Made by a program: the position numbers and the translations under genes
Notes under the pieces: model-generated
Database searches by the model: none
Seen by the model: only the letters and a program-made list of their open reading frames with translations
What the model was told of the DNA's origin: nothing
Shown: positions 18,974-23,565 of the stretch, piece by piece
How the letters are laid out: every line of letters begins with the position of its first letter
How positions within the stretch are numbered: the first letter of the stretch is position 1
Virus record (IMG/VR): IMGVR_UViG_3300044568_000506
Span: 1-27,090 of that record
Direction: 5' to 3' (one strand)
Origin: a virus
DNA: 27,090 nucleotides

Positions 18974-19000
18974 AAAATGGGGGGCATCGGCAACCCCCCA
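18972..19000 (-). terminator. Leftward intrinsic terminator
   Basis: TGGGGGG at 18978-18984 pairs with CCCCCCA at 18994-19000. On the minus strand the hairpin is followed by TTTTTT (18977-18972) and TATTTAA, so it should stop leftward transcripts. On the + strand no T run follows. No minus-strand gene is present, so its purpose is unexplained unless an antisense RNA exists. Confidence 0.6.
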
Positions 19001-19037
19001 CTAATCCCATGAAATGACAAATAACAAGAACGGATTG

Positions 19038-19067
19038 TTGCAAAGATAGTTCTTTTTTGTATATTTG
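19038..19067 (+). promoter_or_regulatory. Bacteroidetes-type promoter of the RNA locus
   Basis: TTG at 19038-19040 and TATATTTG at 19060-19067 are separated by 19 bases, the same spacing as the promoter at 16458. It lacks the TTTGGAATT box. Transcription should begin near 19071, exactly at the foot of the first hairpin of the RNA. Confidence 0.75.
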
Positions 19068-19101
19068 TTGCGGTAACGGAATGTCGCATATTCCAAAGTT
19101 A

Positions 19102-19134
19102 CAAAGATATTTACCCCATTAAGTTAGTGTGCAA
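19102..19134 (-). promoter_or_regulatory. Possible leftward promoter inside the RNA locus
   Basis: CAAAGATA at 19102-19109 reads TATCTTTG (TAnnTTTG) on the minus strand. A minus-strand TTG (CAA at 19132-19134) lies 22 bases upstream of it, at the loose end of the allowed spacing. A transcript would run to the leftward terminator at 19000-18972, about 120 nt. A second CAAAGATA at 19041-19048 lacks a -33 partner. Confidence 0.35.
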
Positions 19135-19166
19135 TGCGACTGCCACTCACTTGGTGGGGTTTTTTT
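19113..19166 (+). terminator. Terminator/attenuator hairpin abutting the replication gene
   Basis: Bases 19113-19129 pair with 19144-19160 over 17 positions (two G-U pairs, one mismatch). Seven T follow (19160-19166), then ATG at 19167. Without antitermination or translation through it, transcription should stop just before the replication gene. Confidence 0.75.
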
Positions 19167-19874
19167 ATGGAAAATTTAGGACAAATTATCAGAAGTAAAA
19201 AGACGGGAAAAAGCAGATACACCCCCATCAGTAATGAAATTTTACAGAGTTTGACACTCACCGCAGAGGAAAAAAGCATTTTAGTACACTTGTTATCACT
19301 GCCAGAGGATTGGATGGTTTACAAAATAAACTTTGGCAAGTCATTGAACATGGGACGGCATCGTTTTAATAACGCATGGAAAGGGTTGGTTGAAAAAGGT
19401 TACATCGTTTCGATACGCATGATTGACACAAACACAAATTTGATGCGTGGATGGAATCACATGGTGTATGAAGAACCAACAAATTCTGAATCACGGATTG
19501 ACACATCTACGGACTTACCGAAAATCGGACACTCCGAGGATCAGGTTATATATAAAGTAATAACTGAACAAAGTAATAAATTAACAAAGGAACTGCGTGA
19601 AGTTGTGACAGAAAAAGAAAAAGAAGAAACAACAAGCCCCCCGAAAAATGTGGGGTTGCCGACCTTGGAACAGTGCATGGAACATTTCAAAGAATCCAAG
19701 TATTCACCAAGCGATGGCGCAGAATTTTTTTATTATTGGGAATCTATGGATTGGAAACGAAAAGGCGGGGCAAAGATTCAAAAATGGAAGTCCGCCGCCA
19801 ACCAATGGATGCAAAAATTACAACCAAATAAACTTGAATTTACACCAAATAAACCGAAAATTGCAACACTATGA
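19167..19874 (+). CDS. Winged-helix replication protein (initiator / helicase-loader type)
   Basis: 235 residues from ATG 19167; the ATG at 19134 in the same frame lies in the loop of the terminator hairpin and would add MRLPLTWWGFF. The N-terminal about 100 residues form a winged helix (RYTPISNEILQSLTLTAEEKSILVHLLSLPEDW ... FNNAWKGLVEKGYIVSIRMI), as in phage replication-initiation proteins. After a Glu/Lys-rich linker, the C-terminal domain (LEQCMEHFKESKY, EFFYYWESMDWKRKGGAKIQKWKSAANQWM) resembles helicase-loader C-terminal regions. It probably marks the origin and brings in the helicase, which is encoded next with an ATGA overlap. Initiator versus loader cannot be separated from sequence alone. 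Confidence 0.75.
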   Translation: MENLGQIIRSKKTGKSRYTPISNEILQSLTLTAEEKSILVHLLSLPEDWMVYKINFGKSLNMGRHRFNNAWKGLVEKGYIVSIRMIDTNTNLMRGWNHMVYEEPTNSESRIDTSTDLPKIGHSEDQVIYKVITEQSNKLTKELREVVTEKEKEETTSPPKNVGLPTLEQCMEHFKESKYSPSDGAEFFYYWESMDWKRKGGAKIQKWKSAANQWMQKLQPNKLEFTPNKPKIATL

Positions 19875-21118
19875 ACATTGAACGAATGATTTTAAGCAAT
19901 GTATTGTTTTACAACGATGCAAAACATTTCCTTCCACGCATAAACAAAAATTGGTTTACTGATAAGGTATCGGTGAAACTGATTGAGGTGATGACGGATA
20001 TGTATTACAACAACATTGAGATTGATTATGTGAGTTTATCACAACACTTTGAACGCAAAGAAGTGATTGAAATAATTCAGTTGCAACAAGAAGCCAGTGG
20101 AATCATGGATTTGAAACCACACTTACTGCAATTGGAATACGAATACATCAAACGCCAAGTGGTTGCGGGGGTGTTGGCATTAAACATTGAAAAGGATTTG
20201 GAAGGGTTGATTGGTGACATTCAAAAGGTGTTGGATGAAACCACATTTTCAACACACAAAGAACCATCAAGTATTGTCAAGGTGACAAACAAGGTTGTGG
20301 ATCAAATCGTTTACAACGCGGAAAAGGGTGGAACATTAACGGGAAAACCAACGGGGTGGCAATTTTTGGATAAGTACATTGGCGGTTACAACGAAGGAGA
20401 TTTGATTGTAATGGCGGGTAGACCTGGAATGGGTAAAACTGCAATTGCACTTACATTGACCAAAGAGTTTGCCCAACGAGGTGGAAAGGCGTTATTCATT
20501 TCCCTTGAAATGAGCAACGAACAATTGGCCAAAAGATACATTTCATTAATTGGTGATATTGAGAATTGGAAGATTCGCAACGGGGTGTTGAAGTCACATG
20601 AGATTGAACAAGTGTGCAACATCGCAAACAACCAACGGATTGAATTTTTTATTGATGACGATGTGGATTCACGAATTGCCCAAATCAAAGCAAAGGCGAA
20701 ATTGCACAAATCACGCAAAGGTTTGGACTTGCTTGTGATTGATTACATTCAGTTGATTAAAGGGACAAAGACAAACCGCGAACAAGAAGTTGCAGAGATT
20801 TCACGGACTTTGAAATTGTTGGCGAAAGAACTCAAAATCACCGTGATGATACTTGCACAGTTATCCCGCAAATCCGAAGAACGGGCAGACAAACGCCCCA
20901 TGTTAAGTGACCTTCGTGAATCAGGTGCAATCGAACAAGATGCGGACATCGTGATGTTCCCGTTTAGGCCGATGTATTACGAACAAGATAAACCCGAAGT
21001 GGAGGATGCGGAGTTGATTATTGCCAAAAATAGAAACGGGGAATGTGTAACCATCCCAACATATTTTGAAGGTAGGTATACAATTTATCGGGAAAATTTA
21101 ACACCACGACAATTTTAA
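19871..21118 (+). CDS. dnaB: Replicative DNA helicase (DnaB family)
   Basis: 415 residues, a little shorter than bacterial DnaB, because the N-terminal domain (about 1-110) is compact. Walker A is GRPGMGKT (183-190), Walker B LLVIDYIQL (287-295). AQLSRKSEER (329-338) and SDLRESGAIEQDADI (346-360) are the classical H3/H4 DnaB motifs, and KNRNG (386-390) carries the trans-acting basic residues. The hexamer unwinds DNA at the fork in the 5'-3' direction. It is translationally coupled to the winged-helix protein before it. No DNA polymerase or primase gene is in the window, so host enzymes may complete the fork. Confidence 0.95.
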   Translation: MNIERMILSNVLFYNDAKHFLPRINKNWFTDKVSVKLIEVMTDMYYNNIEIDYVSLSQHFERKEVIEIIQLQQEASGIMDLKPHLLQLEYEYIKRQVVAGVLALNIEKDLEGLIGDIQKVLDETTFSTHKEPSSIVKVTNKVVDQIVYNAEKGGTLTGKPTGWQFLDKYIGGYNEGDLIVMAGRPGMGKTAIALTLTKEFAQRGGKALFISLEMSNEQLAKRYISLIGDIENWKIRNGVLKSHEIEQVCNIANNQRIEFFIDDDVDSRIAQIKAKAKLHKSRKGLDLLVIDYIQLIKGTKTNREQEVAEISRTLKLLAKELKITVMILAQLSRKSEERADKRPMLSDLRESGAIEQDADIVMFPFRPMYYEQDKPEVEDAELIIAKNRNGECVTIPTYFEGRYTIYRENLTPRQF

Positions 21119-21456: not shown

Positions 21457-21640
21457 ACAACTCTCACTTATTGATGCATTGTGCATCGTAAAAACAGGAT
21501 GCGGAACAGAGCAAGAAAGAGAATTATTAGACAATGCGTATTTATTAATCAAACAACATTCGGAAGTGTTGCATCTTGAATATCAAAGACAATGCATTGA
21601 TAAAAAACTTAATGCTATTAAAGGAGATGACAAACAATAA
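21446..21640 (+). CDS. Small hypothetical accessory protein
   Basis: 64 residues from ATG 21446, which lies inside the end of the preceding gene; an ATG at 21332 would read through most of that gene in another frame. The protein is helical (SLIDALCIVKTGCGTEQERELLDNAYLLIKQHSEVLHLEYQRQCIDKKL). The end (GDDKQ) is read from the same DNA that begins the next gene. It has no known motif. Similar small MDNKQ-type proteins seem common in Bacteroidetes phages, from memory. Confidence 0.55.
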   Translation: MDNKQLSLIDALCIVKTGCGTEQERELLDNAYLLIKQHSEVLHLEYQRQCIDKKLNAIKGDDKQ

Positions 21641-21655
21641 ACAACAAACGGCGGT
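21620..21655 (+). repeat. Junction repeat copy 1 (stop nested in start)
   Basis: This 36-base stretch matches 22047-22082 with two differences; the 26 bases from the ATG (21627-21652) are identical. Its core ATGACAAACAATAAACAAC holds the ATG of the next gene and, in another frame, the CAA TAA end of the previous one. Confidence 0.8.
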
Positions 21656-21872
21656 TGATATTGCAGAATTAGCGATGAAACTTTATCCATTCAGTAATTC
21701 AGAAAGAAATGCTTTTATTGCTGGTTATAACAAAGCCAAAGAAATGGAAAAGGAAGGAATGATTGGATTATTAAAATGGATGAACTCAGTAAACCAATCC
21801 GACCCCATGCGGTTAGAAACCGATAATGATGACATAGTTGAGCAATATTATAAAGAAACATACGGAATTTGA
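21627..21872 (+). CDS. Small phage protein of the MTNNKQQTAV / KEMEKE type
   Basis: 81 residues from ATG 21627, which has a good AAAGGAG ribosome site 1-7 bases upstream; ATG 21576 is rejected. The protein contains MTNNKQQTAV, a helix FSNSERNAFIAGYNKAKEMEKEGM, and the end DIVEQYYKETYGI. The same beginning, KAKEMEKE-like middle and YYxExYG end are found in the gene at 22054, so the two are paralogs, and I recall a wide family of this kind in Bacteroidetes phages. The function is unknown; it is small, acidic and probably cytoplasmic. Confidence 0.65.
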   Translation: MTNNKQQTAVDIAELAMKLYPFSNSERNAFIAGYNKAKEMEKEGMIGLLKWMNSVNQSDPMRLETDNDDIVEQYYKETYGI

Positions 21873-22067
21873 ATGGCGTGGTATTCAGAAAAATCAGTTT
21901 TCGCCTTCGGTAAGTATAAAGGTAAAAAAGTATCAGAAGTTGATGATGACAAATATATTGATTGGCTACACCACAGTAATTTTAATGTATATTTTACACC
22001 AGAAGTAATAAATAGATTGAAGATAGAAAATAAAGGACTTAAATACAAAGGACATGACAAACAATAA
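21873..22067 (+). CDS. Small ExoX C-terminal / DUF3820-like protein
   Basis: 64 residues, starting directly after the preceding TGA. FAFGKYKGKKVSEV (about 10-23) followed by DDKYIDWL matches the 'FGKYKGK..SEV......Y..W' signature of DUF3820 and of the C-terminal part of exodeoxyribonuclease X-like proteins, small DNA-associated modules. No exonuclease catalytic domain is present. The C-terminal residues (KGHDKQ) are read from the second junction repeat. The function is uncertain; nucleic-acid binding is likely from family knowledge. Confidence 0.65.
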   Translation: MAWYSEKSVFAFGKYKGKKVSEVDDDKYIDWLHHSNFNVYFTPEVINRLKIENKGLKYKGHDKQ

Positions 22068-22082
22068 ACAACAAACGGCAGT
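22047..22082 (+). repeat. Junction repeat copy 2 (stop nested in start)
   Basis: Second copy of the 36-base repeat; identical to 21627-21652 over the 26 bases 22054-22079. Here it joins the end of the ExoX-like gene to the paralogous gene at 22054. A shorter relative, ATGGACAATAAACAAC, lies at the junction at 21446. Confidence 0.8.
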
Positions 22083-22269
22083 GGAGTGGTTATGGGAAAT
22101 TGCATATAACAGAGAATTAACCTTTGAAGATTGGAAACAAGCCAAAGAAATGGAGAAGGAGCAAATTGCCAAAGCGTTTGATGATGGCGATTACAATTAT
22201 CACTATTCACGCAAAACGGGAGATGATTTTGAAGATGGCAAAGAATACTATCAAGAAGTTTACGGATGA
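22054..22269 (+). CDS. Small phage protein of the QTAVEWL / KEMEKEQI type
   Basis: 71 residues. MTNNKQQTAVEWLWEI, then TFEDWKQAKEMEKEQIAKAFDDG, then GKEYYQEVYG form a pattern very familiar from Bacteroidetes phage genomes, where it occurs in several copies. It is a paralog of the protein encoded at 21627. It begins within the second junction repeat and ends in an ATGA overlap. No enzyme motif is present; the molecular role is unknown. Confidence 0.7.
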   Translation: MTNNKQQTAVEWLWEIAYNRELTFEDWKQAKEMEKEQIAKAFDDGDYNYHYSRKTGDDFEDGKEYYQEVYG

Positions 22270-22620: not shown

Positions 22621-22970
22621 AACATCTTGAAAGCCGTTTACAAGTCAACTGCGTTAAGTGGTTTCGGTTGGCATACCGCAAGTGGGCAAACCATTTGATT
22701 CATGTTCCCAACGGAGGATCACGCGATTTGCGAACGGCTCAAAGATTAAAAGCCGAAGGAGTATTGCCAGGGGTGGCCGACCTTGTGTTGTTCATCCCCA
22801 ACAAAACACACCACGGGTTATTCATCGAACTTAAAATCAAACCAAACAAGCAAAGCACACACCAAAAGGATTGGGAAAAGTTAGTCACTGCAATGGATTA
22901 CCATTATGTGGTTGTATATTCGTTTGACGATTTCAAATTACAAATAGAAGCATACATTGGTAACACTTGA
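22617..22970 (+). CDS. VRR-NUC domain nuclease
   Basis: 117 residues, the size of single-domain phage VRR-NUC proteins. The PD-(D/E)xK core is visible: Glu5 in the first helix, LIHVPNGGSRD (27-37), RLKAEGVLPGVADLVLF (43-59) with Asp55, and LFIELKIK with Glu71 and Lys73, then Gln83 in a helix. Enzymes of this family cut branched or structured DNA, such as replication or recombination intermediates, and may act like a Holliday junction resolvase before packaging. It is coupled by ATGA to the small gene before it. Confidence 0.9.
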   Translation: MKHLESRLQVNCVKWFRLAYRKWANHLIHVPNGGSRDLRTAQRLKAEGVLPGVADLVLFIPNKTHHGLFIELKIKPNKQSTHQKDWEKLVTAMDYHYVVVYSFDDFKLQIEAYIGNT

Positions 22971-23565
22971 AACCATAGCGAAAAGGCACAACGAATGGTT
23001 GAAAATTGCCAAATACCTTGGTGCAACGGGTGACGAATCGGATGACATGGTACAATCAATGTATTTGAAGTTGGCAGAAATACAATTGGCGGAAGGAAAT
23101 TTCACACGGCTAACAAACCACCACGGAACAATCAACACCATTTATCTTTTCAAGATGCTTCACAATGCGTTTATGGACATCAAACGAAGCCAAAAGAACA
23201 CAATACCACACCAAGACCATTTTGTTCCCGTAGAAAGCCCCGAAATGGCTGAAATGGCACATTCTGATTTGATGGGTGAGGTGAAGAACGCAATTGATGA
23301 ACTCCGTGACTATGACCAAATGTTATTGGAACTTCATTTTGTGTATGGGCATAGCATGAGGGAGATAGAAAAACGCACGGGGATTCCAACACATTCGGTG
23401 TTTAACTCCATCAAGAACGCCAAACAATTTATCAAACAAAGGACACAAAACAAATACAAGATATATGCAGAAGAAAAGCGACACACGGAAACAATTTACC
23501 GAATCACGACCATCCATCGGGGTGGGGGATATGATTCAGAAGGTAACGAAGGCCACGGGGATTGA
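22957..23565 (+). CDS. Sigma-70-like transcription factor (TTG start)
   Basis: 202 residues when begun at TTG 22957, 14 bases before the upstream stop. The first in-frame ATG (23047) would delete much of region 2, so a TTG start is preferred. Residues about 10-78 (HNEWLKIAKYLG ... DDMVQSMYLKLAEI ... NAFMDIKR) fit sigma region 2, and about 107-162 (VKNAIDELRDYDQMLLELHFVYGHSMREIEKRTGIPTHSVFNSIKNAKQFIK) fit a region 4 HTH. It may direct RNA polymerase to late phage promoters. The last about 35 residues (after NKYKIY) overlap the next gene by 101 bases and are probably unconstrained. Confidence 0.7.
   Translation: MVTLETIAKRHNEWLKIAKYLGATGDESDDMVQSMYLKLAEIQLAEGNFTRLTNHHGTINTIYLFKMLHNAFMDIKRSQKNTIPHQDHFVPVESPEMAEMAHSDLMGEVKNAIDELRDYDQMLLELHFVYGHSMREIEKRTGIPTHSVFNSIKNAKQFIKQRTQNKYKIYAEEKRHTETIYRITTIHRGGGYDSEGNEGHGD

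Follow-up and report, generated by a model that had tools for sequence, protein, structure and literature searches.

The window, meaning the whole 27,090-nt stretch of DNA analyzed here, represents a tailed phage (27-kb record) that encodes a large terminase and a portal protein, and its −7 promoter boxes and relatives point to a host in the Bacteroidota. Its replication genes, a winged-helix initiator gene followed by dnaB, are directly preceded by a predicted leader RNA whose U-tract adjoins the initiator start codon, both as described in the first-pass annotation (Table 1). Three other features of the window are recorded here as observations: a strong GC hairpin (GGGGGGCATCGGCAACCCCCC; 18976–19002) upstream of the promoter that is terminator-like on the minus strand; two small adjacent genes (21624–22269) sharing a common stretch MTNNKQQTAV and a KEMEKE motif, which are apparent tandem paralogues; and a region (22957–23565) weakly similar to a phage sigma factor and to a Q-like antitermination protein, a possible regulator of the same operons.

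Table 1. Predicted leader RNA and replication genes in the window
Feature	Position	Strand	Basis and remarks
−33 promoter element, TTG	19038..19040	+	Sequence reading; compare the Bacteroidota consensus TTTG/TANNTTTG (PMC6847099)
−7 promoter box, TATATTTG	19060..19067	+	Sequence reading; kept upstream of the relatives' cassettes
Predicted ~95-nt leader RNA (exchangeable cassette)	19072..19166	+	Covariance model and fold
Hairpin I	19073..19102	+	Outer stem 19073–19077 (GTAAC)/19098–19102 (GTTAC); inner stem 19078–19082/19090–19094
Loop I, GTCGCAT, putative type-specific key	19083..19089	+	Loop matching and covariation
Terminator hairpin II	19113..19160	+	Fold prediction; arms 19113–19133/19141–19160
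Loop II, ATGCGAC, putative lock, exact complement of loop I	19134..19140	+	Loop matching and covariation
U-tract, abutting the start codon at 19167	19160..19166	+	Sequence reading; present 3′ of hairpin II in nearly all relatives
Winged-helix/DnaD-like replication initiator gene	19167..19874	+	PHROG 4707, replication initiation protein; PHROG 186, DnaD-like helicase loader
DnaB-type replicative helicase gene	19871..21118	+	Pfam DnaB_C, E = 2.6e-86

Because the Bacteroidota −7 box spans −12 to −5 (PMC9723704; PMC6847099), transcription is predicted to start at 19072, rather than at 19071 as first proposed, and this 5′ end coincides with the outer stem of hairpin I. The leader folds at −35.3 kcal/mol (z = −5.7), and none of 200 shuffled sequences folded as well. 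Loop I and its exact reverse complement in the terminator hairpin, the observation that had drawn attention to the locus, are both present as described. The terminator loop had been read as 14 bases long; an inner GCA/TGC stem leaves instead a loop II of 7 nt, with a bulged pyrimidine at 19130, three pairs beneath the loop, and the proposed pairing of the whole of loop I holds, all seven bases of both loops being pairable. A detector for hairpins with complementary loops and a T-run gives a single match in the window, none on its minus strand, and about one per 1.2 Mb of shuffled sequence. Given this rarity, the fold z-score, and the loop covariation reported below, we reject a chance origin of the two-hairpin, matched-loop layout. 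The in-frame ATG within loop II (19134) was considered as the true start codon and rejected; it is incidental, since most other loop types carry no ATG at that place. At the level of sequence, a promoter, a terminator hairpin, and a U-tract preceding a gene make up the layout of an intrinsic-terminator attenuator, as had been suggested, and the initiator gene may be under control of the leader.

Relatives of the leader show the same structure in diverged sequence. In an alignment of 37 diverse sequences (A1), chosen partly by exact loop matching and thus possibly biased, 92.3% of cells in the whole proposed structure are paired and both sides have changed in 29 of the 36 base pairs, with a covariation of 0.540 versus 0.198 after shuffling (0 of 500 shuffles as high). 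The loop-loop helix in these 37 sequences is paired in 98.1% of cells, with both-side changes in all 7 pairs and a covariation of 0.695 versus 0.159 (again 0 of 500 shuffles); both sides have also changed in 5 of 5 pairs of the hairpin I inner stem and in 16 of 19 pairs of hairpin II. Compensatory changes, whose absence among relatives the first-pass annotation had named as evidence against its RNA, are thus strongly present in stems and loops alike, and its two-hairpin RNA with loop-loop pairing is borne out. Loop I and loop II are spaced 43–44 nt apart in 35 of the 37 aligned rows.

Because A1 was selected in part by exact loop matching, the loop claim is founded on two loop-blind approaches, a covariance model (R1) that encodes the stems with no loop pairing and a DNA pattern scan. 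R1 matches the window at 19070–19166 (75.6 bits, E = 3.5e-13), the window being also a row of its seed, and identifies 121 full-length viral loci. In all 121, loop I matches the terminator loop by exact Watson-Crick pairing over 6–9 nt, at least 7 nt in 115 of them, and the 121 include five loci (L018, L023, L049, L055, and L057) missed by the loop-based detector. The loop-blind pattern scan likewise found 7–8 nt of loop complementarity in 43 of 43 loci, and one-sided loop intermediates were seen in neither set. Computationally, the structure and its exact loop pairing are both clear.

The position of the RNA is similarly constant, with dnaB lying no more than 5 kb downstream in 118 of the 121 loci. 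Its predicted start lies at a TAnnTTTG promoter, and its U-tract touches the AUG or ends close by. Wherever a DnaB relative is at least 67% identical and enough sequence is available upstream, the RNA lies just before the operon; it is absent from seven loci at 60% DnaB identity (L063–L069). A distant member with loop GTGCAGA (L331) comes from a Bacteroidota assembly, on a 26-kb contig that carries phage genes, and a 35-bit match (L330), in which the detector finds no matching loops, was taken as chance. No DNA-level relative was found among GenBank phages, and the RNA is absent from the leaders of Muminvirus, Lillamyvirus, Elemovirus, Olleya phage Harreka_1, Flavobacterium phage 11b, Riemerella phage RAP44, one Porphyromonas phage, and one Vibrio phage. 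A pattern scan of genome contigs, followed by a model search of its Bacteroidota loci, gave no convincing chromosomal case of a host or prophage copy, nor did 395 Bacteroidota genomes, with few candidates scored per genome. The window has no match in Rfam 15 at gathering thresholds (including the c4 RNA [RF01695], Flavo-1, and Bacteroidales-1 families), in keeping with the earlier statement that no described RNA class is known to have this layout, and at E ≤ 1 the only match among eight loci was to a nematode snoRNA, which we took as chance. No tyrosine integrase was found in the records of 14 relatives, which may be fragments; classical lysogenic immunity therefore seems unlikely and is not assumed here. 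We take this to be an undescribed, widespread, and hypervariable phage RNA preceding the DNA-replication genes of many Bacteroidota phages.

There is substantial variation in the loops, with about 23 loop types in all; loops mostly begin with GT and end with G, and variation is greatest at positions 3–5. The closest phages, with initiators 99% identical to that of the window, have the same promoter flank and gene and, between them, a different ~100-nt stretch with loop pairs such as GTACGAG/CTCGTAC and GTAGAAG/CTTCTAC. Identity to the window is ~98% in the upstream flank and 23–65% in the ~100-bp cassette, and in two loci (L003 and L004) the downstream gene is 97% identical to the window's despite the divergent cassette. 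Five loop types occur among phages with ~98–100% identical DnaB; the window's own clade on the DnaB tree has five types in eight members, seven are found in a clade whose 36 DnaB proteins are nearly identical, and two pairs of loci (L053/L054 and L036/L029) have identical DnaB proteins and different loop types. When the 18 loop types are mapped on a tree of 115 DnaB proteins, at least 53 changes of type are required, compared with a mean of 82 (lowest 75) for shuffled labels and 17 if no swapping had occurred; whole cassettes have been exchanged, and the same types recur across distant DnaB lineages. Several types occur together within single samples; sample 3300043436 holds GTAGAAG, GTACGAG, GTTGCAG, GTGAGAG, and GTCGCAT, and one 62-kb genome (G415) with a 127-bp end repeat carries two self-matched RNAs of different type (L334:853–950 and L335:1113–1208), GTCGCAT preceding a replication-type gene and DnaB, and GTGAGAG preceding another gene. 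The distribution of types is what frequency-dependent selection for diverse alleles would be expected to produce, although recombination with drift could account for part of it. In several loci (L018, L023, L026, L055, and L331:265–780), the interval from the RNA to the replication gene contains open reading frames similar to HNH or GIY-YIG homing endonucleases, which might drive cassette exchange.

The 7-mers are inverted repeats at a fixed spacing in front of an initiator gene, and could be read as DNA-binding sites for the initiator, the RNA stems being incidental. The same initiator (99% identical) nevertheless stands behind GTCGCAT, GTACGAG, and GTAGAAG, the flanking stems carry compensatory changes, and the 7-mers lie in hairpin loops, all of which make this explanation highly improbable. 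A loop pair that is hypervariable, exchangeable, and exactly matched also argues against that part of the attenuator proposal in which the leader senses a fixed ligand or protein, and for loop-by-loop, RNA-to-RNA self-recognition. Predicted duplex energies average −9.6 kcal/mol within types and −2.85 kcal/mol across types; near types do cross-pair in prediction (GTCGCAT with the partner of GTCGCAG at −8.7 versus −9.0 kcal/mol), so that types differing by one base would pair almost as well as identical ones and orthogonality would be graded. Third copies of the loop sequences within 300 nt of the RNA show no general excess (12 found, 10 expected), and hence the surroundings of the RNA generally reveal no separate target site. 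Loci of the TCGCAGC type (L018, L023, L049:1815–1835, L055, and L057) have a third copy, TTCGCAGC, between the U-tract and the start codon, and pairing of loop II with this copy could block translation.

A rival explanation is that the leader is a cis-only attenuator, in which contact between the loops of one nascent transcript sets how often termination gives way to read-through, or responds to a protein of phage or host, and the diversity reflects compensated drift and recombination between conserved flanks. Both loops do lie on one transcript at a nearly constant spacing, and the terminator and U-tract touch or almost touch the start codon; in Flavobacterium, translation is reduced by structure close to the start codon (PMC6847099), and the leader hairpin could therefore also act on translation. 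A purely internal contact, however, needs neither ~23 types nor the exchange of whole types between ~98–100% identical phages, and it sits poorly with the lack of one-sided intermediates in both loop-blind checks. Geometry is also against kissing within the fully folded molecule: we estimate that the ~11 bp of hairpin I, the 7 bp of kissing helix, and the ~19 bp of hairpin II, stacked end to end, would measure about 100 Å, whereas the 9- to 10-nt linker between the hairpins would span about 60 Å, such that a folded molecule could hardly kiss itself unless the weak outer stem opened, and kissing between molecules would be favored. Cis-only action is on balance less likely than not.

Two mutually complementary loops per molecule would permit dimers or rings. 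The leader could be a free or self-assembling phage RNA (a dimer, ring, or cage joined by I–II′ kissing) with a role away from the operon, for which the intermolecular kissing loops of ROOL and GOLLD offer a precedent (PMC12286853). Against such a role, the RNA is very small, ends at the start codon, and is nearly always found directly before replication genes. The phi29 motor requires pRNA, but the window's large terminase is of the ordinary kind and not a phi29-type packaging motor. We consider a free or self-assembling RNA with such a separate role improbable.

The reading we prefer, and to which we give an even chance, is that the leader is a type-specific, self-recognizing RNA controlling termination before the replication genes, in the manner of P4 CI RNA and ColE1 RNA I; we infer its transcription and termination in vivo, its action in trans, the sign of its effect, and interference between phages. 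Transcription would begin at GGTAAC (GTTAAC in most relatives), with hairpin I folding first and terminator hairpin II after it, and much of it would halt at the U-tract to yield a free ~95-nt RNA. Loops I and II can pair along their full length by Watson-Crick rules, so that kissing (I–II′ and II–I′) is possible among leaders and free RNAs of one type, and RNAs of another type would pair worse or not at all. Before the terminator closes, pairing in cis would be feasible, and read-through would be favored in a nascent leader whose own loop I seizes loop II. Free RNA, becoming more abundant as phage genomes multiply in the cell, would instead kiss nascent leaders of its own type, prevent the cis pairing that delays the terminator, and so favor termination before the initiator gene and dnaB. 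The outcome would be negative feedback on replication, together with type-specific interference among co-infecting phages, which would select for new loop types and cassette swapping.

Taken further, type-specific control of this kind would amount to RNA allorecognition in virulent phages, in which one sense transcript is both key and lock, recognizes its own copies within the cell, and shuts down replication of same-type genomes only, with negative frequency-dependent selection maintaining dozens of recombining, interchangeable types; we advance this tentatively, as a possibility with less than even prospects. Were the RNA to act in trans, it would serve as an RNA-coded identity tag that determines which phages can replicate together in one cell, it would explain mutual interference among virulent phages of an abundant bacterial phylum, and its loops would be a source of many kissing-loop pairs that are naturally tested and partly orthogonal.

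Control of replication by RNA loop-loop pairing is textbook knowledge for plasmids, but we know of no phage family that has both partners in one leader RNA and dozens of matched types traded between nearly identical genomes. By analogy, P4 CI RNA, c4 RNA, and the loops of ColE1 RNA I show that such control and such specificity exist. The P4 CI RNA of the SeqA/SeqB/SeqC immunity system resembles the leader in setting: this short phage RNA derives from a replication-operon leader, with which it pairs to cause premature termination before the replication genes (PMC4825925). It is, however, a processed, antisense-like segment with separate targets up- and downstream in the leader, whereas the present RNA has both partners as loops of a single terminated transcript, with an intrinsic terminator and hypervariable loops, and the 14 records yielded no integrase. 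In ColE1, kissing between the loops of RNA I and RNA II sets replication, and the loop sequences define mutually compatible types (PMC9458437); the 7-nt loop-loop kissing and loop-defined types seen here resemble this as far as sequence goes, but ColE1 uses two opposite-strand transcripts to control a primer, and we see one sense transcript with both loops and no antisense gene. Since it has neither separate targets nor an opposite-strand partner, we do not file the leader under P4 CI RNA or ColE1 RNA I. In the c4 RNA of P1 and P7, pairing segments of a phage RNA set heteroimmunity (PMC12197685), but c4 (RF01695) is an antisense RNA that targets the ant ribosome-binding site, and the leader differs from it in architecture, host group, and neighboring genes, with no Rfam match. 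ROOL, GOLLD, and phi29 pRNA are likewise phage-associated RNAs that multimerize through complementary loops, although ROOL and GOLLD are much bigger RNAs, pRNA has its function in a packaging motor, and none is a replication-operon leader with its terminator against a start codon.

The cultivated Cellulophaga phages phi19:3 and phi13:2 carry a leader that is similar in plan (L338:1890–2000 and L346:1390–1500, respectively). It has a TACATTTG promoter and a 5′ segment, CTCTCACAA, whose exact 9-nt complement, TTGTGAGAG, sits near the apex of an intrinsic terminator hairpin, and it precedes a replication gene with a product matching DUF6291-containing proteins of the family. It was missed by the covariance model, its hairpin I has a large loop and a weak fold, and the two phages have one type in common. 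Homology of this leader to the family is probable, and phi19:3 and phi13:2 offer a practical entry for experiments.
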